Shown here: positions 222-19,397 of the stretch, one piece after another | How the letters are laid out: every line of letters starts with the position of its first letter | Numbering within the stretch: the first letter of the stretch is position 1 | NCBI RefSeq assembly: GCF_947258575.1 | Contig: NZ_CAMYIV010000002.1 | Coordinates: 1-64,000, forward strand | DNA length: 64,000 nt | Reading direction: 5' to 3' | Source: an uncultured Alcanivorax sp. | GTDB lineage: Bacteria > Pseudomonadota > Gammaproteobacteria > Pseudomonadales > Alcanivoracaceae | Program-made: the position numbers and the translations under genes | Notes under the pieces: generated by a model | Told to the model about the DNA's origin: nothing | What the model saw: only the letters and a program-made list of their open reading frames with translations | Database searches by the model: none

Positions 222-244
222 CACCCCGGAGGCGCGTTTGTTGC

Positions 245-1606: not shown

Positions 1607-1817
1607 GTAGGAGTTCCCTTCCAGGGGACGAATCTGCGCAGGGCCTTTCAGGCCAGGTGAATACCGGCCGGACACTCTGCCATCATCCAAAACCTTCGCC
1701 CTTTGGGCGTTTCGCGCTGCGCGCGGTTCGTCCCTCGAGAGGAATTATTCGCTACGCTCACCCTTCGGGCCGCACGGAACTACGTGCGTTACTCCGCTAC
1801 GCTCCGTTCCTATAGGG
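1607..1817. repeat. Long REPIN-like element, copy A, in the aspC-uvrB gap
   Basis: The element opens with a REP-type head (CTGTAGGAG, palindrome, CGAA) at 1605-1634 and closes with the inverted head CCGTTCCTATAG. Positions 1745-1817 match 46334-46406 in 70 of 73 bases; that second copy has the same outer layout. The rest of the 554-bp gap between aspC and uvrB holds no ORF I believe and no LexA-like site before uvrB. Confidence 0.8.
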
Positions 1818-1989
1818 GTCTCGGCCTCGATTCGTTCAGCAAGCTGCATCTCCTACGGGGGAAATCCGGTGTTTCTGGCGTTGTTATTCCACCGCGCATT
1901 CACGCCGGCTCTGCTACACTATTTGCCGATTTTAAAACCATGATTTTGCTGCCTTCCTGGCTCGGGAGGGCGGCCACCAGGATATCTCC

Positions 1990-4008
1990 ATGTCCGACAG
2001 CCTTTTCAAGCTTCACTCCGATTACCAGCCTGCCGGTGATCAGCCGAAAGCCATTGCCCAGTTGATCGAAGGGATCGACGACGGCCTGGGTCACCAGACC
2101 CTGCTGGGGGTAACCGGGTCCGGCAAGACTTTCACCATGGCCAACGTGATCGAGCAGACCGGGCGGCCCACCATCATCATGGCGCCCAACAAGACGCTGG
2201 CGGCCCAGTTGTACGGGGAGTTCAAGGAGTTCTTCCCGGAGAATGCGGTGGAGTACTTCGTTTCCTATTACGACTACTACCAGCCGGAAGCCTATGTGCC
2301 GAGCTCGGATACCTTTATCGAAAAGGATGCCTCGGTGAACGAGCAGATCGAGCAGATGCGGCTGTCTGCCACCAAGGCCATTCTGGAGCGGCCGGACACC
2401 ATTATTGTGGCGACCGTGTCTGCCATTTACGGCCTGGGTGACCCGGCCAGCTACCACGCCATGGTGTTGCACCTGGTGCGCGGTGATCGCATCGACCAAC
2501 GCGAGCTGCTGCGGCGGCTGGCGGAGCTGCAGTACACCCGCAATGAAATGGATTTCCGGCGTGCCACCTACCGGGTGCGCGGCGATGTGATCGATATTTT
2601 TCCGGCGGAAGAGGAAAAAGAGGCGGTTCGCATCGAGCTGTTCGATGACGAGGTGGAAACCATCAGCATCTTCGATCCGCTCACCGGCGAGGTGCTCAAG
2701 CGGGTAGGGCGCATTACCGTCTATCCCAAGAGCCATTACGTGACGCCCCGGGAGACCGTGCTCAAGGCGATCGAGATGATCAAGGAAGAGCTCACTGAAC
2801 GGCTGGCCGAGCTCAAGGAACAGAACAAGCTGGTGGAAGCCCAGCGGCTGGAACAGCGGACCCGTTTCGACATCGAGATGCTGCAGGAACTGGGCTACTG
2901 CAACGGGGTGGAAAACTATTCCCGGCTGTTCTCCGGCCGGGCGCCGGGGGATGCGCCGCCGACCCTGTTTGATTACCTGCCGGAAAATGCCCTGCTGATC
3001 GCGGATGAGTCCCACGTGACCATTCCCCAGCTGGGTGCCATGTACAAGGGCGACCGTTCGCGCAAGGAAACCCTGGTGAGCTTCGGGTTCCGCCTGCCTT
3101 CTGCCATGGATAATCGGCCGCTGAAATTCGAGGAATGGGAGCGTCTGGCGCCGCAGATGGTGTTCGTGTCGGCCACGCCGGGCCCCTACGAGGCAAAATA
3201 CGCGGGCCAGGTGGTGGAGCAGGTGGTGCGGCCTACCGGCCTGGTGGACCCGCAGATCGAAATCCGCCCGGCGATTACCCAGGTGGACGACTTGCTGGGC
3301 GAGGCCAAGGAGGCCATCGCCAAGGAACAGCGGGTACTGGTGACCACGCTCACCAAGCGTATGGCCGAGGATCTCACCGAATACCTGAACGAACACGGCA
3401 TCAAGGTGCGCTATCTGCATTCGGACATCGACACGGTGGAGCGGGTGGAAATTATCCGCGACCTGCGGTTGGGCAAATTCGACGTGCTGGTGGGCATCAA
3501 CCTGCTGCGTGAGGGTCTGGATATGCCCGAGGTGGCACTGGTGGCCATTCTGGATGCGGACAAGGAGGGCTTCCTGCGCTCGGATCGCTCGCTGATCCAG
3601 ACCATTGGCCGGGCAGCGCGGAACGTGGATGGCCGTGCCATTCTCTATGCGGACAAGATGACCGGCTCCATGGAACGGGCCATCGATGAGACCAATCGAC
3701 GCCGCGAGAAGCAGGAAGCCTTCAACAAGGAGCACGGCATCACGCCGCAGAAGCTCAACAAGAAGGTCCGCGACATCATGGACGACAGCGGCGGTAGCCG
3801 TTTCGACCGCAAATACAAGGGCGACAAGGGCAAGAAGGTGGCCGAGTCAGCCTCGAAATACGAAGCCATGTCCCCGGCGGAAGTGGCCCGCGAAATCAAG
3901 GCCCTGGAAAACAAGATGATGGAGCACGCCAAGAACCTGGAATTCGAGGACGCGGCGGCGACACGGGACAGGATTCATCAGCTGCGCGAGCTTGGATTTA
4001 TGCGGTAA
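1990..4008 (+). CDS. uvrB: Excinuclease ABC subunit B (UvrB)
   Basis: UvrB is the helicase-like damage-verification subunit of nucleotide excision repair; it is loaded by UvrA and recruits UvrC. The 672 residues match the family length. Visible are Walker A GVTGSGKT (40-47), the beta-hairpin region [12 protein letters not shown] (about 92-103), the DExx-type LLIADESH box (about 336), helicase motif [11 protein letters not shown] (about 536), and a C-terminal UVR motif (about 630-665) that contacts UvrC. The ATG start follows a weak GGATATCTCC site. I see no CTGT-N8-ACAG LexA box upstream, so SOS control is not supported here. It converges on cysZ with a heptad-repeat element between. Confidence 0.98.
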
Positions 4009-4011
4009 AAG

Positions 4012-4166
4012 GCAATTAACAGTTAACAGTGAATAGTTAACAGCGACGCGGAGCAGGATTGGTTTGGCCTGAAACCTAAGAGGCCGCGCCCACAGGTTGG
4101 GCGCGGCCTCATTGTTTGAAGATGGCGGCAAGCGTAGCTCGCGCAGCTGTTAACTGTTAACTGTTC
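4012..4166. repeat. Heptad-bounded hairpin element E1 between uvrB and cysZ
   Basis: The left arm (about 4012-4043) is a run of 7-mers AATTAAC, AGTTAAC, AGTGAAT, AGTTAAC. The right arm (about 4140-4166) is the inverted version. In the middle is a 13-bp GC stem (4080-4110, GAGGCCGCGCCCA with its complement). It starts 4 bases after the uvrB stop and supplies the cysZ stop codon, so it can act as a bidirectional terminator. Related copies lie at 16519 and 18895. Confidence 0.85.
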
Positions 4167-4923
4167 CTTGTTCACTGAGCTCTTCCACCCAGATCAACGT
4201 CCCCGCGATCACAGCCACCGGCATGATGAACAGGTTCACCAGCGGCAGCATGGTCAGGCCCATGACCACGGCGCCGAAGGTGAGTACCAGCCAGCGTTTG
4301 CTTTTCAGGCGCTCCAGCATTACCTCAAAGGGCACCTGGCGGTTATCGGCGCCGAAGTCGATGTACTGCATGGCCAGCAGCCAGCCGGACCACAGGAACC
4401 AGATGGCCGAGGCGAACACGTTCACTACCGGGATGAAGTAGACCACCAGCACCACAAACAGAATCAGCACTGCCCGCCACAGCCAGTACCAGGTCTTGCG
4501 CAGTTCGCGCTTGAAAGTCCGCAGGATCATGGCCGGGATGGATTCGTCGGGCATGGGGTGGCCGGTGGTCTGGATGTCTACCTTTTCCGCCAGAAAGCCC
4601 ATGAAGGGGGCGGCGATCAACTGCACGCCGATGGAGAAGACGCTGGCAAACAGTGCCAGCAGCAGGACCCAGACCAGCAGAATGGCGGCGTCGACCAGGA
4701 AATGCAGGGCCCCGTTGAGGAAGCTCAACGACCCGGTCAGTGCCCAGTCCGCTGTGGCCGCAGCGATCCAGCCAGCGATCCAGCTGCCGCTGAGCCAGTA
4801 GAGGCCGCCGAACACCAGGATGTTGAAGATCAGAGGAATGATCACATAGGTTCGCAGCTCCCGGCTTTTCGCCATGGTGACACTGCGTTTGAGATAGCTG
4901 ATGGCGTCGGCAACTTGAGACAC
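4150..4923 (-). CDS. cysZ: CysZ/EI24 family membrane protein
   Basis: An inner-membrane protein of 257 residues in the EI24/CysZ family. CysZ in enterics takes up sulfate for cysteine synthesis. The N-terminal amphipathic stretch is followed by hydrophobic segments at about 27-47, 70-105, 155-180 and 200-240, and AAPFMGFLAEKVD (about 107-119) is a typical family segment. There are no cys genes beside it, so the sulfate role rests on family alone. The last residues TVNS and the TAA stop are encoded by the heptad-repeat arm of element E1, so the C-terminus has been replaced or extended by the element. Confidence 0.85.
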   Translation of the reverse strand: MSQVADAISYLKRSVTMAKSRELRTYVIIPLIFNILVFGGLYWLSGSWIAGWIAAATADWALTGSLSFLNGALHFLVDAAILLVWVLLLALFASVFSIGVQLIAAPFMGFLAEKVDIQTTGHPMPDESIPAMILRTFKRELRKTWYWLWRAVLILFVVLVVYFIPVVNVFASAIWFLWSGWLLAMQYIDFGADNRQVPFEVMLERLKSKRWLVLTFGAVVMGLTMLPLVNLFIMPVAVIAGTLIWVEELSEQGTVNS

Positions 4924-4945
4924 GGCAAATCCTTGGCTGTGAGAA

Positions 4946-5290
4946 AGCAGCTACAAGCTACAAGCAGACAGCGAAAAGGGAAAGCCCCTGCCGGCAAGTC
5001 TCATCCTCCCGTGCTCGTTGGAGCCTTGCTGGCAAGGTAAAGGGCTATCAGGGTCAGCCAGCCACCGTTTCCGGGTCACCGGTCCACTGTTGGAGCCTTG
5101 CTTGCAAGGCGAACGCCTTGACCGGGAGCTCTTTGCCTTGCGAGTAAGGCTCCAACGGGTGTCGGTGTAGGCAAGGGCTGGGCAGAGCGTGTGAACCGGG
5201 CCCGACTTTTGCACTTGTTTTCAATTCGCCTCCGACTTTGCAGGAGTCCATGCTTGCATGGCGAACCGCCCGGCGACGGCATGATCGCCA
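4946..5290. repeat. Repeat-filled gap between cysZ and smc
   Basis: The 566-bp divergent gap holds an NNNAGCT heptad array (4946-4973). It is followed by three copies of a palindromic unit TTGGAGCCTTGC-TTGCAAGG (5018-5037, 5090-5113, and inverted 5131-5155) and a further unit built on CCATGCTTGCATGGCGAA (about 5244-5262) with a partner near 5280. The units have REP-like shape: a fixed head, a stem, and a GCGAA tail. No credible ORF is present. The remaining 5291-5489 should hold the smc promoter but I cannot place it. Confidence 0.75.
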
Positions 5291-5489
5291 TGTAACCAGA
5301 GCGCCCGGAGGGGCTCGGCATTCTTGGCCTTATTGTAAACAGGGCGTTGCGGCTGATGAATTCAGTCCGGGTTGTCGCTAGACTTACCCCTTTTAATGCC
5401 CACGGTGCGCCGTAATCGCTTCAGGGGGCGGCGAAAATCCCTGTTTTCGCCCAATTTTTGGCCTGTTGGCCCGAGTTTAAGCAGACACT

Positions 5490-8400
5490 ATGCGACTGAA
5501 ATCCATAAAACTGGCCGGGTTCAAATCCTTTGTGGACCCTACCACCACCAATTTCCCGGAGAATCTCACCGCCGTGGTGGGGCCCAACGGGTGTGGGAAG
5601 TCCAATATCATTGATGCGGTCCGCTGGGTGATGGGGGAATCTTCCGCCAAGCACCTGCGTGGTGAGTCCATGGCGGACGTGATCTTCAATGGCTCCAATG
5701 CCCGCAAGCCTGTGGCCCAGGCCTCCATCGAGCTGATCTTCGATAACTCCGATGCCACTGTCACCGGCGAATACGGCAAGTTCAACGAGATCTCGGTGAA
5801 GCGCCAGGTCACCCGCGACGGCCAGTCCAACTATTTCCTCAACGGCACCAAGTGCCGGCGCAAGGACATTTCCGACATCTTCCTGGGCACCGGCCTGGGC
5901 CCGCGCAGCTACGCGATTATCGAGCAGGGGATGATTTCCCGTCTGATCGAAGCCAAGCCGGAAGAGCTGCGGGTCTATATCGAAGAAGCGGCAGGGATTT
6001 CCAAGTACAAGGCCCGCCGTCGCGAGACCGAAAACCGCATCCGCCGCACCCGGGAGAACCTGGAACGCCTCACCGATATCCGTGACGAGCTGGAGCGCCA
6101 GCTGGAGCGCCTCAGCCGTCAGGCCAGCGCGGCGGAAAAGTACAAGCAGTACAAGGAAGAGGAGCGCCTCAAGGGCGCCCAGCTCAAGGCGTTGCGCTGG
6201 AAGGGGCTGGATGGCCAGGTAAAGCAGCTCGACCACGTGATTGGCGAGCTGGATGTCTCCATGGAAGCCAAGGTGGCCGAGCAGCGCCATGTGGACGCAG
6301 AAGTGGAGCGCCTGCGTGAGAAGCACCACGAGGTGCAGGAACACTTCAACCAGGTGCAGCAGCATTTCTACGCCCTGGGCGCGGAAGTGGCGCGGCTGGA
6401 ACAGAGCATTCAACACCAGCGCGAGCGCAAGCAGCAGCTCTATGAAGAGCTGGACCAGATCAAGGCCAGCTGGCAGGAATCCGATGAACACCTGCGGGTG
6501 GACAGCGAGAAGGTGGCGGAACTGGATGCCATCCTCGCCGAGCGCGAGCCGGAGCTGGAGCTGATCAGTGAGCAGCAGGAAGCGTCCGCCGAGGCGTTGG
6601 CCCTGGCCGAAGAAACCATGCAGAACTGGCAGCAGGAGTGGGAAGAATTCAACGGCCAGTCCGGGGAATCCCGCCGCCAGGCCGAGGTGGAGCAGTCCCG
6701 CATTCAGCATCTGGAAAAATCCCAGGATCGCCTGAAAGAGCGGATCGAGCGCCTCAAGAAAGAACAGGAATCCCTGGATTCCGGTCCGCTGGCCCAGGAA
6801 ATGCGCCAGCTGGAAGAGCAGGTGGAACAATATCGCGGCCAGTCAGAAGAAAACGAACTGCGCAGCGAATCCCTGCAGGAAGACATCAACCGCATGCGCC
6901 GGGAAAACGGCGACCGGGGCCGTCAGCTGGACGAGGCCCGCGAGAAGCTGCAAACCCTGAAGGGCCGTCGTACCTCTCTGGAAGCCTTGCAAAAAGCCGC
7001 CATGGGCGATGATGGGGCGGTGAGCGACTGGCTCAACCGTCACGAGCTGGATGCCGAACCGCGCCTGGCCGATCAGGTGCAGGTAGACGAAGGGTGGGAA
7101 AAGGCCCTGGAAGCGGTGCTGGGTGACAGCATCCAGGCGGTGGCGATCAGCGGCCTGGACCAGGTCAGCGACTGGCTGGGCGATCTGTCCCATGGCCGCC
7201 TGGCCCTGTTCAGCCCGGCCTCGGTGAAGGGCTCAGGCAGCAAGGGCAAACTGCTCCGAGATCATGTACAGGGCCAGGTACCGGAAGGCCTGCTCGCCGG
7301 CGTCTATGTGGCGGATGACCTGAACGCCGCTCTGGCCCTGCGCGGGCAACTGGACGCTTACGAATCCGTGGTCACCCGTGACGGCATCTGCCTGGGCCCG
7401 GACTGGCTGAAAGTGGCCAAAGAGGAAGATCAGGAAGCCGGTATTCTCGAGCGCCGTCGCGAGCTGGAGCAACTGGAGGGCGAGATCGAGACCCTGCAGG
7501 CCACCGTGGACGACCTGAAAGAACAACTGGACAGCACCCGGGAACAGATCGGTGAACTGGAAGAAGAGCGCGAGGACGTGCAGCGCCAGGCCAGCCGCAT
7601 CAACCGGGAGCTGGGTGAGATCAATGCCCAGGTCAGCGCCCGCCAGGTGCGTCTGGAGCAGATCACCATGCGCCGTGAGCGTCTGGGCCGTGAGCTGGAA
7701 GAAGCCAATGAGCAGCACGCCCAGGAACAGGAACAGATGAAAGAGGCTCGGGGTGTGCTGGCAGAAGCGCTGGACGCCATGGAGGCCGACAGCGGTCAGC
7801 GTGAAGCCTTGCTGTCCCGCCGTGATGAGCTGCGCTTGCGTCTGGATGAGGCACGCCAGAAAGCCCGCCATGCCCGTGACCAGTCCCACCATCTGGCCAT
7901 GGAAGTGCAGGGCGCCCGCACTCAGGCGGATTCCCTGCGCCAGAATCTGAGCCGCCTGGAATCGCAGGTGCAGGCCCTGGCCGAGCGCAAGGCGCTGCTG
8001 GAAGAGCAGACCAACGAGGGCGACGAGCCGGGCACCGAGCTGCAGATGCAGCTGGAAGAGAAACTGGAAGTGCGCCTGGAAGCGGAGCACAAGCTCACCG
8101 AGGCCCGCCGTGAACTGGAAGCGGTGGACCACGAGATGCGTAACCTGGAAGGCCAGCGCGGCCAGTTCGAGCGCCAGGCCCAGGAAATCCGCAGCACCAT
8201 GGATCAGAAGCGGATGCAGTGGCAGGACCTGACCACCCGCCGCCAGACCGTGGCCGAGCAGCTGGGCGAGCACAACTTCGACTTGGACACCGTGCTGGAA
8301 AACCTGCCCGAGGAAGCCAACGAGCAGGAGTGGGCCCGGGAAATGGATATGATCGGCCAGCGTATTTCACGGTTGGGCCAGATCAACCTGGCGGCCATCG

Positions 8401-8987
8401 ACGAATACCAGCAGCAGTCCGAGCGCAAGAACTACCTGGACAGCCAGAACGCGGACCTGGAAGACGCGCTCAACACCCTGGAAAACGCCATTCGCAAGAT
8501 CGACCGGGAAACCCGGGCGCGCTTCAAGGAATACTTCGACCGCATCAACCGGGGCCTGCAGGAACTGTTCCCCAAGGTGTTCGGCGGCGGTCACGCCTAC
8601 CTGGAGCTCACCGGCGACGACCTGCTCGATACCGGTGTGACGATCATGGCGCGGCCCCCGGGCAAGCGCAACAGCACCATTCACCTGTTGTCAGGCGGGG
8701 AGAAGGCGTTGACCGCTTTGTCCCTGGTATTCAGTATCTTCCAGCTCAACCCGGCACCATTCTGTCTCCTCGATGAGGTGGATGCGCCGCTGGACGATGC
8801 GAACGTGGGGCGTTTCTGTAACCTGGTGTCGGAAATGTCCGCAAAAGTACAATTCATCTACATTACTCATAACAAGATTGCGATGGAGATGGCTGCTACC
8901 CTGATGGGGGTCACCATGCACGAGCCTGGTGTGTCCCGTCTGGTATCGGTCGATGTGGAAGAAGCTGCCGAAATGGCGGCTATGTAA
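5490..8987 (+). CDS. smc: Chromosome segregation ATPase SMC
   Basis: The core ATPase of the SMC-ScpAB condensin, which compacts and separates sister chromosomes. The 1165 residues have the expected order: Walker A GPNGCGKS (31-38) in the N-terminal half of the head, a long coiled coil (about 170-500), a hinge with FSPASVKGSGSKG (about 570-590) in its middle, a second coiled coil (about 650-1000), then the ABC signature LLSGGEKALTALSL (about 1065-1078) and Walker B FCLLDEVDAPLDD (about 1090-1102). It heads the smc-zipA-ligA group known from Pseudomonas and its relatives, which use SMC rather than MukB. Start is ATG after a gene-free gap. Confidence 0.98.
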   Translation: MRLKSIKLAGFKSFVDPTTTNFPENLTAVVGPNGCGKSNIIDAVRWVMGESSAKHLRGESMADVIFNGSNARKPVAQASIELIFDNSDATVTGEYGKFNEISVKRQVTRDGQSNYFLNGTKCRRKDISDIFLGTGLGPRSYAIIEQGMISRLIEAKPEELRVYIEEAAGISKYKARRRETENRIRRTRENLERLTDIRDELERQLERLSRQASAAEKYKQYKEEERLKGAQLKALRWKGLDGQVKQLDHVIGELDVSMEAKVAEQRHVDAEVERLREKHHEVQEHFNQVQQHFYALGAEVARLEQSIQHQRERKQQLYEELDQIKASWQESDEHLRVDSEKVAELDAILAEREPELELISEQQEASAEALALAEETMQNWQQEWEEFNGQSGESRRQAEVEQSRIQHLEKSQDRLKERIERLKKEQESLDSGPLAQEMRQLEEQVEQYRGQSEENELRSESLQEDINRMRRENGDRGRQLDEAREKLQTLKGRRTSLEALQKAAMGDDGAVSDWLNRHELDAEPRLADQVQVDEGWEKALEAVLGDSIQAVAISGLDQVSDWLGDLSHGRLALFSPASVKGSGSKGKLLRDHVQGQVPEGLLAGVYVADDLNAALALRGQLDAYESVVTRDGICLGPDWLKVAKEEDQEAGILERRRELEQLEGEIETLQATVDDLKEQLDSTREQIGELEEEREDVQRQASRINRELGEINAQVSARQVRLEQITMRRERLGRELEEANEQHAQEQEQMKEARGVLAEALDAMEADSGQREALLSRRDELRLRLDEARQKARHARDQSHHLAMEVQGARTQADSLRQNLSRLESQVQALAERKALLEEQTNEGDEPGTELQMQLEEKLEVRLEAEHKLTEARRELEAVDHEMRNLEGQRGQFERQAQEIRSTMDQKRMQWQDLTTRRQTVAEQLGEHNFDLDTVLENLPEEANEQEWAREMDMIGQRISRLGQINLAAIDEYQQQSERKNYLDSQNADLEDALNTLENAIRKIDRETRARFKEYFDRINRGLQELFPKVFGGGHAYLELTGDDLLDTGVTIMARPPGKRNSTIHLLSGGEKALTALSLVFSIFQLNPAPFCLLDEVDAPLDDANVGRFCNLVSEMSAKVQFIYITHNKIAMEMAATLMGVTMHEPGVSRLVSVDVEEAAEMAAM

Positions 8988-9045
8988 GGCAATCCGGTGC
9001 TCTCCGTAATGGTGGCACTTCAGCGCAAGCAAGGAAGATGAGGCA

Positions 9046-9969
9046 ATGGGCCTGAATCTGGAAACATTGATTGGCATTCTGGTTATTTTGATCCTGCTGA
9101 TCCTGGCGGACGGTGTCCGTCGTATGATCAAGGAACGGCAGGGTCGGCTGCGTATGCGTATCGACCCGCGTTACCGGGATGCTCAGGAAGACGAACCCGA
9201 GAAAAGCGATTACAACCCGGAGCTGATTGGCACCGCCCGTGTGGTACGTCGGGCCATGGAAATGGACTCGCAGGAGCGGGCTGACGCGCCGCCCACCATG
9301 ATGGAGCCGGACGAAGCCGTTACCGAAGAGATCCCCACCGCCGAACAACAGAACCTGTTCGACGGCGACAGGGAGCCCGAGCCGGTGGACGAGCCCAAGA
9401 CATACCGGGAACCGCCGAAACAACCGGAACCGCCCCGCGAGCCGCCGAAACCGGCAGTGGAGCAACGGCCTGTCGAGAAGAAACCGGTCGAGCGACCGCA
9501 GGAAAGAAAGACGGAGCGCCACCGCGAACCCCAGCCGGTGCTGGAAGTGATCGTGGTGCACCTGATTGCCCATCGTGGCGCGCCCTTTGCCGGTAACGAT
9601 CTGCTGCGATTGCTGCTGGAATCCGGCCTGCGTTACGGGCAGATGAACATCTTCCATCGGCATGTCACTCTGGATGGCCGCGATGAGCTGCAGTTTTCCA
9701 TGGCTAATGCGGTAGAGCCGGGCACCTTCGACCTGGACACCATGGAAGAGAAAACCTTTGCCGGTGTGACCTTCTTCCTGAAACTGCCGGGTGCCACGGA
9801 CGCTCTGGGTGCGCTGGACAAGATGCTGTCCATCTGCCGCCGCCTGGCCAGTGAGCTGGATGGTGACCTGAAAGACGAACAGCACAGTGTGCTGACCCCG
9901 CAGACCATGGAACATTTGCGCCAGCGGGTGCAGGAATTCGAACGTCGTCAGCGGGTGCCGAGCGCGTAA
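9046..9969 (+). CDS. zipA: Cell division protein ZipA
   Basis: ZipA anchors FtsZ filaments to the inner membrane at the division site. The 307 residues show an N-terminal membrane segment (LETLIGILVILILLILADGV, about 5-24), a basic juxtamembrane stretch, a charged linker rich in Pro, Glu and Arg (about 85-165) and a C-terminal FtsZ-binding domain (about 165-300) beginning LEVIVVHLIAHRG. It lies 58 bp after smc, consistent with one operon. An NNNAGCT heptad array begins 3 bases after its stop. Confidence 0.96.
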   Translation: MGLNLETLIGILVILILLILADGVRRMIKERQGRLRMRIDPRYRDAQEDEPEKSDYNPELIGTARVVRRAMEMDSQERADAPPTMMEPDEAVTEEIPTAEQQNLFDGDREPEPVDEPKTYREPPKQPEPPREPPKPAVEQRPVEKKPVERPQERKTERHREPQPVLEVIVVHLIAHRGAPFAGNDLLRLLLESGLRYGQMNIFHRHVTLDGRDELQFSMANAVEPGTFDLDTMEEKTFAGVTFFLKLPGATDALGALDKMLSICRRLASELDGDLKDEQHSVLTPQTMEHLRQRVQEFERRQRVPSA

Positions 9970-9971
9970 AA

Positions 9972-10005
9972 AGCAGCTACTAGCTTCGAGCTGCTAGCTG
10001 CGAGG
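9972..10005. repeat. NNNAGCT heptad array after zipA
   Basis: Consecutive 7-mers AGCAGCT, ACTAGCT, TCGAGCT, GCTAGCT and a degraded GCGAGGA unit begin directly after the zipA stop codon. Similar arrays occur at 4946, 13159 and 29316. Confidence 0.8.
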
Positions 10006-10030
10006 AAAAGCCGCACCGTTGCGGGCTGGA

Positions 10031-10114
10031 ACGTAGGGTGCACTGAGCCTACGCGAACTGCACCATGCAAAGGCCGGAAAGGTGCAGTTCGCTTGGGCTC
10101 AGTGCACCCTACGT
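10031..10114. repeat. Inverted repeat with GTAGGGTGC ends
   Basis: The outer arms ACGTAGGGTGCACTGAGCC and GGCTCAGTGCACCCTACGT are exact reverse complements over about 19 bp, with inner GCGAACTGCACC/GGTGCAGTTCGC arms. This looks like two REP units facing each other. A single degenerate half lies at 33841-33876. Confidence 0.85.
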
Positions 10115-10127
10115 TTATTACGGCACC

Positions 10128-10210
10128 GTAGGAGCGCCGCTTGAGGCGCGAACCGGTGGAAAGAAGGCAACACCGATACAGCGCCGGTTCGCGCCTCAAC
10201 CCGCCTCCTA
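10128..10210. repeat. REPIN (GTAGGAGCGCC family) before ligA
   Basis: A left REP with head GTAG and stem GCGCC..TTGA..GGCGC followed by GAA (10128-10153) faces a right REP (about 10187-10210), with about 35 bp between. GTAG-headed palindromes in facing pairs are the classic REPIN layout. The element lies directly upstream of the ligA ribosome-binding region. Confidence 0.8.
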
Positions 10211-10219
10211 AAAAGATAA

Positions 10220-13155
<2,936 letters not shown>

Positions 13156-13158
13156 GAG

Positions 13159-13276
13159 AGCAGCTTCTAGCTACGAGCTGGAAGCTAAATCAAAACCTTC
13201 CGGCGCTGTTTCGCGTTGATTCATTTAGCAACAAACTTGCCCGCGTTGCCGCTAGCAGCTCGCAGCTAGTCACTGC
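13159..13276. repeat. NNNAGCT heptad inverted element
   Basis: The left arm is AGCAGCT, TCTAGCT, ACGAGCT, GGAAGCT (13159-13186). The right arm (about 13248-13276) is the inverted equivalent with ACTAGCT, GCGAGCT, GCTAGCG. The spacer is about 60 bp. The element begins 3 bases after the stop of the SLT lipoprotein. It has the same plan as the AGTTAAC elements but different repeat bases. Confidence 0.8.
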
Positions 13277-13406
13277 CTTTTACCGCTGAACTGCCGTTTT
13301 TCCGGTCTTATCGGAATCCGGTCGGTTTGAATGTGGTTCGCTGTGAAAATGTGATCAGAAGCACAAAAAAGGTCTTTGCGGACCGATGGATTAAGGGGAA
13401 CACACT

Positions 13407-14087
13407 TTGCGTTTTGTATTCGGTCTGCTGCTGTGGGCAGGTGGGGCCATGGCCGCGTATGCCATGCAGGTGGACAAGGCCATTGTTCATTTTCCCGCCG
13501 ACAAATCACCGCGTCAGGATGTGGTCATCGGTAATCCCGGTGAGGAGCCCCTGTTTGTGGATGTGGGCATTCTTACCGTGAGTGATCCCGGTACCGATCG
13601 TGAGCAGCGCTTGCCGGTGAAGGATCCGGAGTCTGCGCCTTTAATTGCAACGCCACGACGGCTGATGGTGCCGCCGGGAGGAAGCCGCCGGGTGCGACTG
13701 GTGAATCTGGATGGTAATGGCGACATGGAGAAGGTCTACCGGGTAGATCTGAAGCCTGTGGCGCCGCCGGAGCAGATGGAGGGCACCGGAGTACGGGTGC
13801 TGGTGGGTTACCAGCTGCTGGTGTTTGTGGCCCCGTCGCAAAGCGGGGTGTCGCTGGAAGGCCAGCGCGATGGCAAGTCCCTGACGTTGACCAACAAGGG
13901 CAACGTCAATGTGCTGCTGCATGAAGGGGAGCAGTGCCCACCGAGCCCGTCGACCCAGCCCTGTCAGCCAGTGCAGGGGCGCCGCCTCTATCCGGGTAAC
14001 AGCGTTACCCTGGCATTACCCATGGATGCGCCGGTGCGTTTCAATCTCACCACTGCCGGTGAGACCCGGCAGCAGCGTTACCCCTGA
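13407..14087 (+). CDS. Periplasmic pilus assembly chaperone
   Basis: A 226-residue chaperone of a chaperone-usher pathway, expected to bind pilin subunits in the periplasm and pass them to the usher. A signal peptide (MRFVFGLLLWAGGAMAAYAM) precedes an immunoglobulin-like first domain with VDKAIVHFPADKSPRQDVVIGNPG. A P-P-G-G-S-R-R-V-R segment (about 90-98) corresponds to the basic groove strand. The start is TTG at 13407, chosen because AAGGGGAA lies correctly upstream and only this start gives a full signal peptide. A TG-only 14-bp gap separates it from the usher. The subclass (archaic/alternative rather than classical FimC type) is my inference from divergence. Confidence 0.82.
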   Translation: MRFVFGLLLWAGGAMAAYAMQVDKAIVHFPADKSPRQDVVIGNPGEEPLFVDVGILTVSDPGTDREQRLPVKDPESAPLIATPRRLMVPPGGSRRVRLVNLDGNGDMEKVYRVDLKPVAPPEQMEGTGVRVLVGYQLLVFVAPSQSGVSLEGQRDGKSLTLTNKGNVNVLLHEGEQCPPSPSTQPCQPVQGRRLYPGNSVTLALPMDAPVRFNLTTAGETRQQRYP

Positions 14088-14101
14088 TCGGAACGGTCGT
14101 C

Positions 14102-16534
14102 ATGGGCAAGCGTTGGCAGGTCGGGTGGATTGCCCTGCTGGTTGCTGTGCTGGCAGGACAGGCCATGGCGGCGGATTATGCGGTGCCGCCCGGGTTCGAA
14201 ACGCTAATGGAGCCGCAGGAAACCCTGGTGGATGTGTACTTCGGCGATCGCCTGGTGATGTCTACCCCTGCCCGTTATTCCCCTGAGGAAATCACCTTCC
14301 TGGAGCCGGATGCGTTGATCGGCGCCATGCCTCAGGTGAAACCGGAGCCCTGGCTGCTGGCGGTGCTGTCCACGCCGCTGGACCCCCACGGTGACAAGGT
14401 TTGTGTCAGCGAACACCAGCAGGACTGCGGTCTGATCGAGCCGAAAGTCGCCGGTGTGATTTTCGACGAGCAGCGCTTCCGGGCAGACCTGTTTATCCAC
14501 CCCAACTACCTGGACGCCCCGGAAGCGCTGGCGCCCCGTTATCTGCCTGAGCCCACAGAAACCCGCTGGGGCGGTGTGCAGAATCTGAGCTTCAGTCACG
14601 CAGGGAGTGCCGAAGGGGAGAACAACACCAGTTTGTTTGGCCGTAGCCTGGTAGGCCGGGGGGCCCAGTATGGCTTTGCCAACTGGGTCAGCACCGATGA
14701 GCAGTCCCTGTCGATTGATGAGCTGGGCTGGCAGCGCAACTACCCGGATCACCAGGTCACCGCCGGCCTGTTTCAGCCCAACAGTGACATGCTGACGGTG
14801 ATTGACCGCCAGCCGATCGCCGGGGTCGGTGTGTCCCGTTCGCTGGTGCGCCGTCAGGACCTTGAGGAAGCCTTTGCCACGTCCGTGGAAGTGTTCCTGT
14901 CATCGCGAAGCCGCATTGAGGTGTACAAGGATGGCCGCCTTTACGGCAGCCAGTTTCTGGAATCCGGGCGCCGCCGCCTGGAGACCGCCCGTCTGCCCAC
15001 CGGGGCCTACACGCTGGAATTGCGCATCACCGATGCCAATGGCAACACCCGCGTGGAAGAACAGTTTTTTGTGAAAAGTCGCCGTCTGGCGCCGCAGGGC
15101 GAGAAGTTGTGGTTCGCCCAGCTCGGCCAGGCAACGGCCTTCGCCCGTGACCAGGTGTTGCCGGAAGACAGACAGACCGCCCTCTTTATGACGGGTTTGC
15201 GCCAGCGTTTCGCGGATTCCTGGGGTGGCGGGGTGGCGATGGCGGCTACCGGTGAGCAGGCCTTGCTGGAAGTCAGTGGTGACTGGTTTTCCCGTTATTC
15301 CCAGCTATTTGCCAGCACCTTTGTGGAAAGTGAGGGTGGCAGTGGTTTTACCCTGCGCGGTAATGCCAACTTCAGGGACTTGCGCTTCCAGTTCGACAGC
15401 CAGCGGGTCTGGACTGACGATCCGGCCGTCTTCGATGTTGAGTTTGATGTAGAGGAGTATCGGCTGCTGCCTCGCTCTGTGCGCCGTGACAGCGCCGAGC
15501 TCTGGGTGCCGGCAGGGCGAGGGCAGCTGGTATTTTCCCATCGTCGCCAGCGACTGGGTCGTGCCAACGAACAGACCATCAGTTCGGCAGCCTATCTGCA
15601 TACCTTTCGGGTGGGCAGTGGTCAGGTGGTCAACCTGTCTGCAAGCCTGACGCGAAACGACGGTGACAATCAGATTCTGCTTGGCGCCAACTGGTTGATG
15701 ACCCGTCCGGACTGGCAGCATCAGGCCAACCTGGGCTGGGTTCAGGACGATGCGCCCGGTACCGAGGATGGGGTGAATGCCGCCTGGGCCAGTGCCTGGA
15801 ATGACCGGGACCGTTTTGATGCGGACCTGACGCTGGGGGCGGGGGTCAACTTTGATCCGGGTCGTCAGTCCGTGCTGCTCAACAGTGAATACGGCTCCCG
15901 CCATGGACGTGGTCGGGCCGATGTGGCCTTTAACGATTCCGACCGTGGTGGCCGCGATACCCTGACCAGCGTGCGTTATGACACCAGTCTGGTGATTGGT
16001 GATGGTGCCGCTCTGGGTGGTGAACAGCTGAATGATTCGGCGGTGCTGCTGAAGCTCGATGGCGCCGACGGCGCGTTATTCGACGTGCTGGTCGACGGAA
16101 ATCCGGAGATGGTGGTGAAGGGGGGGAGCTCGGCCACCCTGACGTTACCGGCCTATCAGGTACACAAGATCGCCCTGCGTGATCGCGGTACCGACTTTGT
16201 GAATCTGGATAGCACGCCCCGCGACGTGGTGCTGTACCCGGGCAATGTGGCGATGCTGGCCTGGGAGCTGCAAAGAGTGATGGTGGCCCTGGGGCGTCTG
16301 CAGGATAGCGAAGGCAATATCCTTTCCCGTGCCCGCATTCAGGGTCCCGGTTTCGACAATCTGGTATTCACCGACGAGGATGGCTACTTCCAGCTGGAAC
16401 TCCCGGAATCCAGTCTGGGCAGCCTTTATGTGGAAACCGCTGAAGGTCGCTGCACCCTGCAGACCGGGGCGGCGCAGATCCAGCACGGGGTGGCGCGGTT
16501 GGGGGCGGTGGTTTGTTCAGTTAACAGTGAATAG
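14102..16534 (+). CDS. Outer-membrane pilus usher
   Basis: An 810-residue usher, predicted to form the outer-membrane pore and polymerise subunits delivered by the chaperone. It has a signal peptide (to about residue 22), an N-terminal chaperone-docking region, a long beta-barrel region rich in alternating patterns (about 160-640), and C-terminal beta domains with a carboxypeptidase-regulatory-like segment (GPGFDNLVFTDEDGYFQLELP, split here for clarity, about 750-770). The length and form fit the TcfC/alternative usher group better than FimD. The final residues VNSE and TAG stop come from heptad element E2. Its subunit genes are on the opposite strand and converge on it. Confidence 0.8.
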   Translation: MGKRWQVGWIALLVAVLAGQAMAADYAVPPGFETLMEPQETLVDVYFGDRLVMSTPARYSPEEITFLEPDALIGAMPQVKPEPWLLAVLSTPLDPHGDKVCVSEHQQDCGLIEPKVAGVIFDEQRFRADLFIHPNYLDAPEALAPRYLPEPTETRWGGVQNLSFSHAGSAEGENNTSLFGRSLVGRGAQYGFANWVSTDEQSLSIDELGWQRNYPDHQVTAGLFQPNSDMLTVIDRQPIAGVGVSRSLVRRQDLEEAFATSVEVFLSSRSRIEVYKDGRLYGSQFLESGRRRLETARLPTGAYTLELRITDANGNTRVEEQFFVKSRRLAPQGEKLWFAQLGQATAFARDQVLPEDRQTALFMTGLRQRFADSWGGGVAMAATGEQALLEVSGDWFSRYSQLFASTFVESEGGSGFTLRGNANFRDLRFQFDSQRVWTDDPAVFDVEFDVEEYRLLPRSVRRDSAELWVPAGRGQLVFSHRRQRLGRANEQTISSAAYLHTFRVGSGQVVNLSASLTRNDGDNQILLGANWLMTRPDWQHQANLGWVQDDAPGTEDGVNAAWASAWNDRDRFDADLTLGAGVNFDPGRQSVLLNSEYGSRHGRGRADVAFNDSDRGGRDTLTSVRYDTSLVIGDGAALGGEQLNDSAVLLKLDGADGALFDVLVDGNPEMVVKGGSSATLTLPAYQVHKIALRDRGTDFVNLDSTPRDVVLYPGNVAMLAWELQRVMVALGRLQDSEGNILSRARIQGPGFDNLVFTDEDGYFQLELPESSLGSLYVETAEGRCTLQTGAAQIQHGVARLGAVVCSVNSE

Positions 16535-16680
16535 TTAACAGTGAATAGCTGCGCGTGAAAATTGGTTGTGTGTTGAAAACAAAGAGGCCGCGTCCAGAGT
16601 TTGGGCGCGGCCTCTTGGCGTTCAGAACCAACAAGCCGGTCCCGCGAAGCTGTTCACTATTCACTGTTAACTGTTCACTG
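16519..16680. repeat. Heptad-bounded hairpin element E2 between usher and tip subunit
   Basis: The left arm AGTTAAC, AGTGAAT, AGTTAAC, AGTGAAT (16519-16549) and the inverted right arm (about 16650-16680) flank a GC hairpin (16583-16615, AGAGGCCGCGTCCA with TGGGCGCGGCCTCT). It provides the usher's TAG stop and the TGA stop of the convergent tip-subunit gene, so both proteins end inside the element. Confidence 0.88.
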
Positions 16681-17583
16681 CATTTCAACCATGATCGTCA
16701 GCACGCCGCTGTGGGTGCCGGATGCAGTGGCGGCGCTCATATCGGTAGCGAGTACGTCAACGCTGACGGTGGCATTGTTGCTGGCGCCACCATTGCATTG
16801 TGGGTCGCCGCTGCGGCTGTTACCCATGCCGGGCAGGGGGATGCCGGCGGTGGCGGTCTGGGCGCCGTTGCCATCGTTCCAACTCACCGCATAGGGCACG
16901 CTGCTGCCAGCGGATATCAGCTCAAAGGCGCCGCCGTTGCCGCTGCCGGTGAGGGTAACCGCGTACTGGCCGCCATTGGCCTGGTAAACGCAAAGGGTTT
17001 CGGAGCGGGTAATATTGTTGTTGCCATCGAACGTCCCCAGGGCGATGTCATCGATCTGGGTGACCTGGATGGAGTTGGGGATGGTGATATCCACGCTGAC
17101 GGTGAAGTTGGCGGAAGACTTGCCCCTGCCTGAGTTGGTGGCGGTGAAATTGAACTGGCTAGTGTAGGTACCAGGGGGCACGGCCTGGATGTCTGTGCCA
17201 CTGGCATATACGTCCAGACGGGCGTTATTGCCGCCGGGGCAGTAACGCGCAGCACCAGTAAAGATTTCTGCGGTAGAGAGGTTTGGTTGCAGTGTCGCTG
17301 CTTGGCCACCGACAAGGTCGTCCCACGACAGCGTAACCGGAATGCTGTCGGCGCCGGAAACTACCTCAAAAGGGCCCTGAGCCTCGACGGCATAATCAAT
17401 CGGTGTGTTGCCTTGCGGATTGGGTTGCTGCACGGAGCTGACACACAGTTCAAAGCTGTGATTCAGATCGCCGCCGTTCCAGGTAAAGGTGGTAGTAAAG
17501 GCATTTGGATCGGTGCGGATGTGGGCCTGAGCATGTGCTGTGAAAAAAAGCAGCATGCTGCTTGCGATAATACGCAACCACAT
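16675..17583 (-). CDS. Predicted two-domain pilus tip subunit
   Basis: The 302-residue secreted protein has a signal peptide (MWLRIIASSMLLFFTAHAQA) and two beta-rich domains. The N-terminal domain (about 21-165) has two Cys. The C-terminal domain (about 170-302) starts DITIPNSIQVTQIDDIALG and ends TIMVEMQ; it resembles the neighbouring pilin in layout, Cys spacing and its closing beta strand. A two-domain subunit with a pilin-like second domain is the usual plan of a tip adhesin. It lies 70 bp after the pilin gene on the same strand. The ligand cannot be told from sequence. Its stop codon lies in element E2. Confidence 0.68.
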   Translation of the reverse strand: MWLRIIASSMLLFFTAHAQAHIRTDPNAFTTTFTWNGGDLNHSFELCVSSVQQPNPQGNTPIDYAVEAQGPFEVVSGADSIPVTLSWDDLVGGQAATLQPNLSTAEIFTGAARYCPGGNNARLDVYASGTDIQAVPPGTYTSQFNFTATNSGRGKSSANFTVSVDITIPNSIQVTQIDDIALGTFDGNNNITRSETLCVYQANGGQYAVTLTGSGNGGAFELISAGSSVPYAVSWNDGNGAQTATAGIPLPGMGNSRSGDPQCNGGASNNATVSVDVLATDMSAATASGTHSGVLTIMVEMQ

Positions 17584-17653
17584 AGGGTTCTCTTTATCGT
17601 AAAATTAGCACTATAGCAGATGGGCCGGGGTTTCCGGCCCATCTGTCTGGTGC

Positions 17654-18196
17654 TTATTCCGCAGTGATGATCACGGTCAGTGTATCGGTGTGATCGGTAG
17701 CAGTAGTGGCTGCACCCACCTGATTCTCCGTAGCACTGACGCCGAGGGCCACATTGGGGCCAGAGGTCTGGCAGTTGGCTTCGGTGGTATTGCTGCTCGT
17801 GAGGCCTGTTTCGGCGGTATCTTCGGTCAGCGTAGTCCCATCCCAGGTTACAGAATAGTTGACCTCACTGGTGCCGCCGTCACTCAGAGTGAAAGCGCCG
17901 CTGGTACCGGCTCCGTTAGCGTCATTGCTGCTCTGCGCCACGACGCCATAGCCACCGGCCAGATTACGGAACACGCACACGTTATCGGTGGCGGAAAAGC
18001 TGTTTCCCTGGTTGATGGTCATGTCGTTCATGTCGCTGATCTTGATCAGGTCTGGCACGTTCAGGGTAATCACGGCAGTACCAGTGGACGAGGCACTGGC
18101 GCCGGTTCCCATGCTGCCATCGGATGCAGCCATGGCCAGGCCGGAGGCAAGCAGGGCGCTGGAGAAGATAGCCGGTACAAAGAATTTGATTGTCAT
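17654..18196 (-). CDS. Predicted major pilin
   Basis: The 180-residue secreted protein has a signal peptide ending AMA (about residue 23). A Gly/Ala/Ser/Thr-rich segment follows, then a pilin-like beta domain: AVITLNVPDLIKISDMNDMT (about 43-62), one Cys pair (about 74 and 142) and a closing strand DTLTVIITAE. The C-terminal strand and domain order match the second domain of the adjacent 302-residue protein. It is encoded first, then the tip gene, opposite to the chaperone-usher genes. It is predicted to form the pilus shaft. No family name was recognised with certainty; a spore-coat-U or CS1-like pilin is possible. Confidence 0.65.
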   Translation of the reverse strand: MTIKFFVPAIFSSALLASGLAMAASDGSMGTGASASSTGTAVITLNVPDLIKISDMNDMTINQGNSFSATDNVCVFRNLAGGYGVVAQSSNDANGAGTSGAFTLSDGGTSEVNYSVTWDGTTLTEDTAETGLTSSNTTEANCQTSGPNVALGVSATENQVGAATTATDHTDTLTVIITAE

Positions 18197-18463
18197 GGTG
18201 TCATTCCCTTAAGCGGATGGACAAGAGTGTTATGTAAGCCTGGACAACCCCAATCGCGCCTCAGGCCTTATATTGAAAGCGATACTGCCATGTGTGCAGT
18301 GGAATGTGATCTGCATCTCGTTATTTATGCGATGGGCGGTGTCTCTGCTTTACTGATTTGCGTTCAGTACAGCAATTTCACGTGTTTCAACGATTTACCG
18401 CTCACAAAAGCGGATGGCTTTGCTAAAGTGCGGGTCAGATGAGCAGTGCAGTCAGGGGGCAGC

Positions 18464-18892
18464 TTGGATAACGAATCCATCGTTTACGGGTGTATAAAAC
18501 ATTTGCCGTTTGGCAGCTTGCAGGAACGCAAGACCCATTGCTTTCATAACCGCCGGGCCGTTCGCCAGCTCCCGCAGGCCGATGAATGGCCGTTCTTGTG
18601 CCGGGAAATGTTCTCTGTACCCGGCGATGACCTGATGGGAGGTACCTTCCAGACCCAGGTGATCCACTTCGGTATGTCCTACCGGGCGGTGGAGTATGAG
18701 TGGGAGCACTGGATCGCCAAGTTCGAATCCCTGCTCAAGAACATGTACTGGGTGAATGCGGTGGTACACCTGGAAACCGAGCTGTCCGGCTTCCACACTT
18801 TTGTCTGGGACAGTGCAGAAGTGTGCCATGAGCCTTCCGAGGCGCCGTTGAGAGTGCGTTGTGAGTGGGCGCGGGAAGGGGCGATCGCTTGA
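18464..18892 (+). CDS. Conserved-looking hypothetical protein
   Basis: I do not recognise this family. The likely start is TTG at 18464, because AGGGGG lies 7 bases upstream; a GTG at 18446 is in frame but has no such site. The 142-residue product has no signal peptide or membrane segment and is rich in Trp, Glu and His, with VIHFGMSYRAVEYEWEHW and FHTFVWDSAEVCHE in the C-terminal half. Codon use looks like its neighbours. It converges on yheU, separated by element E3, which begins 2 bases after the stop. Confidence 0.65.
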   Translation: MDNESIVYGCIKHLPFGSLQERKTHCFHNRRAVRQLPQADEWPFLCREMFSVPGDDLMGGTFQTQVIHFGMSYRAVEYEWEHWIAKFESLLKNMYWVNAVVHLETELSGFHTFVWDSAEVCHEPSEAPLRVRCEWAREGAIA

Positions 18893-18894
18893 AA

Positions 18895-19054
18895 GGCAGT
18901 TAATAGTGAATAGTTAATAGCGTCGCGGGCTGGTTTTTCAGGTTTTTGAAGCGCAAGAGGCCGCGTCCAGACTTTGGGCGCGGCCTCTTTCGTTTCAGAA
19001 CAATAAACGCGGTTTCGCGTAGCTGTTAACTATTCACTATTCACTGTTAACTGC
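18895..19054. repeat. Heptad-bounded hairpin element E3 before yheU
   Basis: The left arm AGTTAAT, AGTGAAT, AGTTAAT (18895-18921) and a longer inverted right arm (about 19020-19054) flank a hairpin (18955-18992, AAGAGGCCGCGTCCA with TGGGCGCGGCCTCTT). It ends transcription from both sides by its form and supplies VNSE plus the stop of yheU. Confidence 0.88.
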
Positions 19055-19279
19055 CTCATTAGCCTGCTCCTTGCCCATCACCGACACGCTCTCCGTCACC
19101 TCATCGAATACCACAAACGCTTCCTGTTTCTTTAGCTGATTGCGGACCTGCTCCACTTTGGTGGAGGTGGGGATTTCCTGATCACCGTAATCGGTGCCGT
19201 CTCGGGTGACGAACTCTTCGATCAGGTTGGTGAGGGTGTCGGGTGGGAGGTCTTTCCAGGGGACGATGATGGGAGGCAT
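19037..19279 (-). CDS. yheU: YheU family protein (UPF0270)
   Basis: A small cytoplasmic protein whose biochemical role is unknown. The sequence IIVPWKDLPPDTLTNLIEEF followed by VTRDGTDYG lines up with enterobacterial YheU ([27 protein letters not shown] from memory), which is the basis for the name. The start is set at ATG 19279 because it gives the family's short N-terminus (MPPIIVPW); an upstream ATG at 19303 would add 8 residues. The C-terminal AVNSE and stop are read from element E3, the same tail as the usher although the proteins are unrelated. Confidence 0.85.
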   Translation of the reverse strand: MPPIIVPWKDLPPDTLTNLIEEFVTRDGTDYGDQEIPTSTKVEQVRNQLKKQEAFVVFDEVTESVSVMGKEQANEAVNSE

Positions 19280-19308
19280 AAGATTCCATGTTGACTGAGG
19301 CATTTATT

Positions 19309-19388
19309 CCGTAGGAGCGGCGCTTGATCCGCGAGTGCTTCGGCAATATTGCTCCAAATGCTTCGCGGCTCAAGCGCCGCTCCTACGG
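19309..19388. repeat. REPIN (GTAGGAGCGGCG family)
   Basis: The arms CCGTAGGAGCGGCGCTTGA and TCAAGCGCCGCTCCTACGG face each other with about 40 bp between. The element fills the gap between yheU and the MAPEG gene. Confidence 0.85.
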
Positions 19389-19397
19389 AAAGGGTCT

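Follow-up and report, generated by a model that had tools for sequence, protein, structure and literature searches.

Word-typed heptad elements with terminator-like hairpins behind stop codons in Alcanivorax and their replacement at fixed gene ends

The window analysed here, a stretch of 64,000 nucleotides (positions 1 to 64,000 of contig NZ_CAMYIV010000002.1), comes from a genome of Alcanivorax, a marine, oil-degrading genus, and the genome is close to A. jadensis. Three elements in the window are built on one shared plan, as the original prediction had stated, and all their parts were found at or a few bases off the positions given there. Element 1 (4014-4176) starts with a left heptad arm of the AGTKAAY class (4014-4043, + strand) 5 nt past the stop of uvrB (UvrB by Pfam), continues with a GC hairpin, GAGGCCGCGCCCA-CAGGT-TGGGCGCGGCCTC (4080-4110), that is terminator-like on both strands in a simple scan, and ends with a right arm (4147-4176, - strand) that encloses the stop of a CysZ-like gene (4150-4923, - strand). 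The left arm of element 2 (whole element 16519-16679; arm 16519-16548, +) provides the stop codon for the gene at 14102-16534, its GC hairpin is at 16584-16614 and its right arm (16650-16679, -) encloses the stop of the gene at 16675-17556 (-). Element 3 (18898-19052) has a left arm of three heptads (18898-18920, +) 5 nt past the stop of the gene at 18446-18892, a GC hairpin at 18957-18987 and a right arm (19023-19052, -) enclosing the stop of a UPF0270 gene (19037-19279, -).

A fourth copy without the GC hairpin, predicted at 40587, was also found and has another core (40585-40696). Its outer arm, with the word AATTAAT (40585-40614, +), lies at the promoter end of the following gene and its second arm (40667-40696, -) directly behind the stop of a carboxyltransferase gene (40701-42311, -), and a lone arm (50957-50986, +) lies 5 nt past the stop of an NAD kinase gene (50022-50951, +). 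The original prediction had placed this copy between co-directional genes and had listed the lone arm beside it; both exist, and one arm of the fourth copy and the lone arm follow gene ends like the others. Heptad arrays with other words were present 5 nt past a stop codon at 9975-10004 (+; AGCTACT AGCTTCG AGCTGCT AGCTGCG AG) and 6 nt past a stop codon at 13162-13188 (+; AGCTTCT AGCTACG AGCTGGA AGCTAA), the latter with a reversed partner at 13251-13274 (-).

The complete element is about 161 bp long. An arm of four 7-bp repeats is followed by a CGCG box, a spacer, the GC hairpin and a further spacer, and the inverted arm closes the element. When up to 3 mismatches were allowed, the heptad pattern matched 24 times in the window compared with 0.01 expected, and genome-wide the heptad tile gave 239+229 matches versus 11+4 for the reversed control, while the hairpin pattern gave 30+23 strand-wise matches in the whole genome versus 0 for its control. 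With up to 2 mismatches allowed, the hairpin half matched 9 times within the window, which is not above shuffles (6.5), and its exact matches numbered 6, all of them in elements 1-3. With a covariance model built from 10 copies, at least 150 strand-wise matches were obtained in the whole genome, and merging by hand gave about 78 places among the matches listed. The element was present in 17/17 genomes of the genus and in 5/5 of another genus. Rfam 15, above gathering score, returned three tRNAs in the window and no match to the element, and carriage on plasmids or phages was rejected as a candidate after a distant blastn search with element 2 (which may leave out near records) gave no match.

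The orientation of the flanking genes was compared with the genomic background, as had been proposed as a check, and the copies were enriched at convergent junctions. The 66 copies with a hairpin were distributed as 41 convergent, 24 co-directional and 1 divergent, given a convergent background of about 10%, and in an unbiased sample the element was present at 12/42 convergent junctions compared with 13/313 other junctions (Fisher p = 2.7e-6). The statement that the elements sit exactly between convergent genes holds as an enrichment. Arms facing a gene 3' end were located at -30 to +20 nt from its stop in 111/113 cases, versus 7/35 for arms facing gene starts on the same comparison, and the stop codon was inside the arm in 69/113 of the arms that face gene ends. 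Lone arms were found behind single gene ends. The anchor of the elements is the stop codon rather than convergence as such.

Both core halves, CCGCG and CGCGG, were present in 57 of the 66 two-arm copies whose core measures 85-112 nt; this is the unforced count, since in the hairpin table the search pattern itself imposed the five core pairs, which are uninformative on conservation. GGCCGCG and CGCGGCC were both intact in 49/66 two-arm copies, and 57 distinct loops were found among 61 hairpins. With both strands pooled, the tails behind the stem averaged 4.37 T of 9 and the spacer 1.07, and at least 5 T of 9 were found in 58/114 tails versus 1/114 in the spacer. The tail pairs 16-18 were formed in only 51-56% of copies, and by the stricter, simple scan only element 1 of elements 1-3 passed as a terminator. 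A stable GC hairpin (z -8.9 for the fold of the whole element 2, 16516-16682; z -9.2 for hairpin 3, fold of 18940-19000) and a T-rich tail directly after the stem on both strands are thus features that the elements have in common with intrinsic (Rho-independent) bidirectional terminators, as is the position at gene ends. In contrast to such terminators, the stem here keeps its letters and not pairing alone (49/66). Judged from these features the elements look like bidirectional intrinsic terminators, and the predicted two-way function is supported by the tails on both strands, termination itself being deduced from sequence.

The repeat originally described (AGTTAAC/AGTGAAT) is present, but it is one of several heptad words: the word varies among copies and includes AGTKAAY, AATTAAT, AGTTGAC, AATTGAT and others. 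Word statistics were calculated on 116 element rows after duplicates had been removed from 293. The two arms of one copy belonged to the same word class in 91/95 cases compared with 41.1 expected (maximum 54 in 5000 permutations), and one mixed-word copy, L212, carries GAC on the left and AT on the right. Five heptad columns are 96-98% conserved and two are nearly free, and no correlation exists between the free letters of one arm and those of the other. The arms mostly contain four heptads, and the copies have a core in common. Period 7 was also observed upstream of 5/166 gene starts in genome G005.

Orthologous junctions were compared between species in 32 pairs with flanks at least 86.5% identical, a cut chosen after inspecting the table. 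The same word and the same core were kept in 10 pairs, both were different in 21, the word differed around a like core in 1 (L077:8259 versus A. jadensis, core likeness 0.75) and no pair had the same word with an unlike core. The 48 pairs below the cut comprised 22 with the same word and an unlike core, 26 with a different word and an unlike core and 0 alike; we read the same-word pairs as spacer divergence, but swaps between cassettes of one word could be concealed among them, or word and core could be less tightly linked. For the 21 replaced pairs flank identity was 0.916 both in the 50 bp next to the element and at a distance of 350-400 bp (aligned columns only), and in one of them the flanks were 98.4% identical. 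Given that the identity of the flanks does not fall off towards the element and that word and core change together, this indicated that whole units are replaced in place. In ordered convergent comparisons the other genome carried an element at 32/45 sites, a REPIN at 12 and something else at 1, compared with 13/69 occupied among sites where the first genome was without an element; the co-directional comparisons with an element gave 0/2. The description of the element as portable agrees with near-identical copies at unrelated sites (core identity of 0.90 at two such sites of one MAG, where the likeness stops at the arm ends). However, it is not simply portable, because the sites themselves are for the most part conserved from species to species and it is their occupant that changes. 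No clean empty site was found when the window was compared by eye with genomes G005 and G002. At the sole empty-site candidate, 21653-21783, the own genome keeps a heptad remnant in our reading.

The term MITE-like fits the elements in that they are short (about 161 bp), non-coding and dispersed at many places (about 78 listed) and have terminal inverted repeats in the form of the 30-bp heptad arms, but target-site duplication is absent: direct repeats of at least 5 nt were observed 5 times (n = 147) compared with 2.5 expected from permutation, none beyond chance. Some transposon families make no target-site duplication. A genome-wide search for Y1_Tnp identified two Y1 (RAYT-type) genes, both adjoining REPIN-type repeats (GTAGGAG-type or GTAGGGTG-type), and no heptads were found in the flanking stretches examined, so that neither gene is flanked by the repeat of the element and a RAYT was rejected as its mover. 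No related autonomous element with a transposase was noticed among the arms listed. The claim that no transposase explains the elements holds only for the Y1 family, the one searched.

These findings make it probable that the elements are a MITE/REPIN-like, word-typed family of bidirectional terminator cassettes, which are replaced as whole units behind stop codons. The dispersed, short, non-coding palindromic cassettes would then constitute one family, in which the strong GC hairpin with T-rich tails on two strands could serve both neighbouring genes as an intrinsic terminator. Each end would consist of four 7-bp iterons with one word that types the cassette, and the iterons may be bound by a word-specific protein, which would be a recombination factor or else the transposase of an autonomous relative as yet unseen. 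Cassettes are located directly behind stop codons, often providing the stop, presumably since a terminator is tolerated and of use there. The comparison between species shows that a resident cassette is swapped whole for another one, with another word and another core, or for a REPIN, leaving the flanks unchanged, and this might occur by conversion from another copy or by insertion of a new copy and subsequent loss of the resident one. A wider idea, which we put forward as speculative and rather unlikely, is that Alcanivorax gene ends are fixed slots for whole-unit exchange of the ~161-bp terminator cassettes, that the eight-fold 7-nt word at the cassette ends is an address code for a word-specific exchange protein and that word families compete for slots with each other and with REPINs.

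It is also quite possible, if not what we expect, that these are host-owned terminators at ancient sites, which never transpose and are homogenised by ectopic gene conversion, the copies overwriting each other via stem and arm homology. Such conversion would account for the stability of addresses (32/45 convergent comparisons occupied), for replacement without flank change and without target duplication, for two like cores 2 kb apart (L104, 0.87) and for mixed-word copies such as L212, which could be half conversions. However, likely donors are few, given that 40/2145 own-genome core pairs reach 0.75 and the best 0.87, arms of different words have only part of their letters in common, and the first spread to the roughly 78 places listed would still have to be explained.

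Three other explanations concern the arms. Pairing of the arms with each other as RNA or DNA (in a cruciform, an RNase III site or 3'-end protection) is suggested by their inverted arrangement with a common word and by the fold of element 2 (-85.5 kcal/mol, z -8.9), but in the main word class the mismatch was 6.04 versus 5.97 permuted in the own genome (p = 0.63) and 5.26 versus 5.46 permuted for all copies in the sample (p = 0.19), and lone arms occur at single gene ends. Since the free letters of the arms are uncorrelated, without covariation, arm pairing is not the conserved property and was rejected as improbable. The many gene stops inside arms (69/113) and the closure of all three frames by 68% of AGTKAAY arms would be expected if the arms were all-frame stop-codon arrays, serving as a translational fail-safe behind gene ends, and PMC4679880 notes a three-frame property of forward TAACTGA repeats. 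The same value (0.68) was obtained after shuffling the free letters, however, all frames are closed by only 18% of arms of the AGTTGAC class, and the gene-end words AGCTACG, AGTTGCA and ACGTCGG, if repeated perfectly, by their letters contain no stop codon. On the shuffle test and the AGTTGAC class we rejected three-frame stop arrays as the selected function, and we give this explanation hardly any chance. Finally, the arrays might have arisen by replication slippage at gene ends, where any word could be amplified: in a word-free test of an unbiased 320 kb, strict period 7 was found at 15/162 gene ends and periods 4-6 and 8-12 at none, and PMC4692102 cites an excess of heptamers across many bacterial genomes. 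Against this, one word is found at tens of sites, mostly four-fold and with a common core, and slippage does not leave five fixed columns together with two free ones, which makes slippage improbable.

A gene end is expected to keep its terminator or to alter it mutation by mutation; here the putative terminators change as cassettes while the flanking genes stay the same. If the elements are word-typed cassettes, the word code would offer a direct handle on a protein reading the word, and a testable angle on the heptamer excess reported in bacterial intergenic DNA.

The combination of element features was not found in the open-access literature, where none of the 20 titles listed of 907 papers matching sequence words dealt with such repeats. 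This agrees with its having been called undescribed, but gene-end heptads and convergent-biased MITE-like repeats have been published separately, according to the accessible portions of PMC4692102 and PMC2718517. The MITE-like intergenic repeats of Pseudomonas fluorescens (PMC2718517, 2009) are inverted repeats around a core with a clear convergent (tail-to-tail) bias and a proposed terminator role, and the portion of that report available to us makes no mention of heptad iterons, word classes, stop anchoring or fixed-site replacement. Gene-end heptamer repeats in Xanthomonas and Nostoc (PMC4692102, 2015) have the G-rich word GGGAATC, were studied for G-quadruplexes and, within the text available, are reported without hairpin core, word classes or replacement; the present elements similarly have, on the coding strand, tandem 7-nt repeats no more than ~50 bp past the stop (111/113), but their words (AGTKAAY, AATTAAT, AGTTGAC, AATTGAT) are not G-rich or quadruplex-forming. 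TAACTGA direct repeats of Beggiatoaceae, cyanobacteria and Bacteroidetes (PMC4679880, 2015) are also intergenic heptamers with a related word, whose forward repeats give stops in three frames, but in the main species they mostly precede start codons instead of following stops, and they are direct arrays for which the text available describes no hairpin core. REPINs and the REP-RAYT system, like the heptad elements, are short, palindromic, dispersed units, and REPs have been linked to termination and gyrase (PMC2817692, available in part). Unlike REPINs, which have two inverted REP hairpins with GTAG-type heads, the elements have 7-bp iterons at their ends and one central hairpin. In this genus, REPIN-type repeats and heptad elements occupy the same slots at gene ends.

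The three elements at 4014-4176, 16519-16679 and 18898-19052 (elements 1-3) were found to share one plan, as had been claimed, with the same ordered parts in all three: after a heptad arm and its CNNCGCG-type box comes a GC hairpin with a spacer on either side, then a CGCGNNG-type box and an inverted arm. The arms consisted of four 7-bp repeats (heptads) plus AG, about 30 bp, the left arm of element 3 having three heptads. The copy at 40585-40696 carried the word (heptad letters) AATTAAT and a different core, and the lone arm at 50957-50986 was preceded by the NAD kinase gene. In the whole 3.5-Mb genome (13 contigs) heptad tiles gave 468 matches vs 15 for the reversed pattern (up to 3 mismatches), and a covariance model trained on 10 copies detected at least about 78 element places. 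Stretches fetched around matches held 74 paired copies, most with a core of about 97-109 bp, and 33 lone arms.

Gene orientation was called with our own simple gene finder. Of the 66 hairpin copies in the fetched stretches, 41 lay at convergent and 24 at co-directional junctions and 1 at a divergent one, compared with 48, 319 and 115 arm-free junctions, respectively; eight copies with other or degenerate cores were distributed 1, 5 and 2. These stretches were selected around matches; in an unbiased sample (320 kb of genome G005, 80 kb of A. jadensis T9, a close congener of the own genome, and the window) 12/42 convergent junctions carried arms vs 13/313 others. The claimed placement exactly between convergent genes therefore held as an excess over background, but not for the 25 other hairpin copies; what the arm is tied to is the stop codon. 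Arms lay within -30 to +20 nt of the stop in 111 of the 113 cases where they faced a gene 3' end (stop inside the arm in 69, arm at 0 to +9 nt in 40) and in 7/35 where they faced a gene start. The unbiased sample held 38 arms; 32 of them had a gene of the same direction no more than 3 kb away, and 28 of these 32 were at -27 to +29. Among the lone arms 31 were placeable and 28 of these had the facing gene reading towards the arm, with its stop at -34 to +7 nt in 27. Convergent junctions carry two arms because two gene ends are present there.

Words were compared in 116 non-redundant two-arm copies from fetched Alcanivorax DNA, the arms being classed by heptad columns 2 and 5 (AGTKAAY, AATKAAT, AGTKGAY and AATKGAN). 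The class was equal in both arms of 91/95 copies with both arms classable, with 41.1 expected by chance and a maximum of 54 in 5000 permutations. In the main class (57 copies) five heptad columns were 96-98% conserved and columns 4 and 7 were nearly free, with no correlation between arms in the free letters. Pairing of one arm with the other is argued against by these uncorrelated letters, and the pattern of five fixed and two free columns argues for each heptad being recognised by something that would read five of the seven letters. A word-free test found a strict period of 7 behind 15/162 gene ends and also ahead of 5/166 gene starts in G005, and periods 4-6 and 8-12 at 0/162 gene ends; the gene-end arrays included at least seven words, e.g. 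AGCTACG, ACGTCGG and AGCTACA. Seven other genomes, sampled at 60 kb each for six and at 40 kb for the last, gave no gene-end array in this test, a small sample given that two of the seven, G015 (which we take to be A. borkumensis SK2) and G029, carry model matches elsewhere.

Two-arm copies whose core measured 85-112 nt numbered 66; CCGCG and CGCGG halves were both present at hairpin spacing in 57 of them, and GGCCGCG and CGCGGCC were both intact in 49. Among 61 hairpins picked for an exact match to CCGCG-N13-CGCGG with an arm close by, which fixed five core pairs by choice, the next five outer pairs were formed in 93-98% and four inner pairs in 87-93%; in some stem pairs both bases had changed (CG replaced by TA or AT), and loops were distinct in 57/61. 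The nine bases past the stem contained on average 4.37 T vs 1.07 in a spacer control stretch (both strands pooled), and at least five T were found in 58/114 tails vs 1/114 controls, the commonest tails being TTGCGTTTC (19/122) and TTTGCTTTC (5/122). Since the tails are T-rich while pairs 16-18, which would join both tails, were formed in only 51-56% of copies, they fit T runs kept for two-way termination better than symmetry as such. A stricter terminator scan of positions 1-20000 flagged element 1 alone among elements 1-3. Judged from sequence, the elements appear to work like a MITE/REPIN-type repeat doubling as a putative bidirectional terminator.

At the uvrB/cysZ junction an element was present in 9 of the 15 genus genomes with a hit, in four word classes, and in G011 the right part of the element was duplicated around REPIN-type repeats (REP-type palindromic units); the other six genomes had a half element fused to a REPIN (1), a REPIN alone (4) or none of these (1). 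Most named loci were fetched by the hairpin, so that element presence is biased upwards. The 107 junction-by-genome comparisons that could be made covered 42 of the 74 own-genome copies, with different words and unlike cores in 55, same/unlike in 24, same/like in 8 and different/like in 2 (like, 0.75 or more), one arm only in 10 and no arms in 8 (4 of them REPIN). A core was present in both genomes in 80 comparisons. The flanks were at least 86.5% identical, a cut chosen after the table was seen, in 32 of these, comprising 10 same/like, 21 different/unlike, 1 different/like (L077:8259, 0.75) and 0 same/unlike pairs, like here being 0.73 or more (95th percentile of own-genome core pairs, 0.729). 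Below the cut 26 were different/unlike, 22 same/unlike and none alike, and we read this as spacers diverged beyond comparison. Flanks of the 21 replaced pairs had an identity of 0.916 both in the first 50 bp and at 350-400 bp (aligned columns only) and the swap therefore brings no flanking DNA along. The clearest case was own-genome contig C8 against A. jadensis, where both flanks were near-identical right to the edges of the element, and at L080 one resident copy was inverted in place in G005.

Slots were also surveyed in seven stretches of 64-120 kb by ordered comparisons, each pair being counted both ways. Convergent junctions with an element in one genome had an element in the other in 32/45 cases (words differing in 23/32), and in the remaining 13 the place was taken by a REPIN motif (12) or by something different (1); those without an element in the first genome had one in the other in 13/69, and co-directional junctions with an element were occupied in 0/2. 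At the G005 orthologue of own-genome C2:169806 an insertion of about 11.6 kb (L182 6400-18000, C1 ~396400-408000) separated a left AATTAAT arm from a full AGTKAAY element.

One MAG carried cores 0.90 identical at two unrelated sites, the likeness stopping at the outer arm ends, and other cross-site pairs reached 0.83-0.87; we take this as evidence for a dispersed unit, spread by transposition or by conversion. High copy number and inverted ends are shared with MITEs (short non-autonomous repeats), but no target duplication was seen at the elements. REPIN identity was rejected, both REPIN features tested having failed; the Y1 (RAYT-type) transposases present adjoin other repeats, and element 2 had no match in plasmid or phage records. 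A convergent bias of MITE-like repeats is already described in PMC2718517, and gene-end heptamers in PMC4692102 and PMC4679880. The original statement that the combination is undescribed is half right: the components are each in print, and in the open-access literature searched we found no paper joining the two, nor any open-access description of Alcanivorax heptad elements.

In a search of 57 genomes (best 50 candidates at most scored per genome, stricter filters, E <= 1e-5), the model matched 17/17 genomes of the genus (own genome counted), 5/5 from another genus in the same family and 1/1 from a third, with no match in the other 34. Among the matches listed in a hairpin-pattern scan of named records, most were from Alcanivorax and Alloalcanivorax and unrelated taxa contributed the remainder, with one hit each.

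Repeats of REPIN type (GTAGGAGCGCCGCTTGAGGCGCGAA and similar) use the same gene-end slots, in the window at 19280-19397, 39134-39350 and 45084-45399 and also at uvrB/cysZ orthologues, and a heptad-armed core (GAGTTAC word) was nested inside the REPIN at 39134-39350. A second REPIN type at 9970-10240 was similar to the GTAGGGTG(C)CACTGAGCC...GGCGAACTGCACC-type repeats flanking a Y1 transposase gene on both sides in L319 (own-genome C10). A second arm class, without GC hairpin and with a CGAAAA-, CGGAAAA- or CTAA-type continuation replacing CNNCGCG, was observed in L083, L085, L086, L091, L093, L095, L125, L128, L134 and L135. Single arms had grown to 7-11 heptads, mostly AGTGAAC, in L128 (9649-9806), L132 (4011-4208) and L177 (~19135-19220, G005), with the appearance of ordinary slippage of one word.
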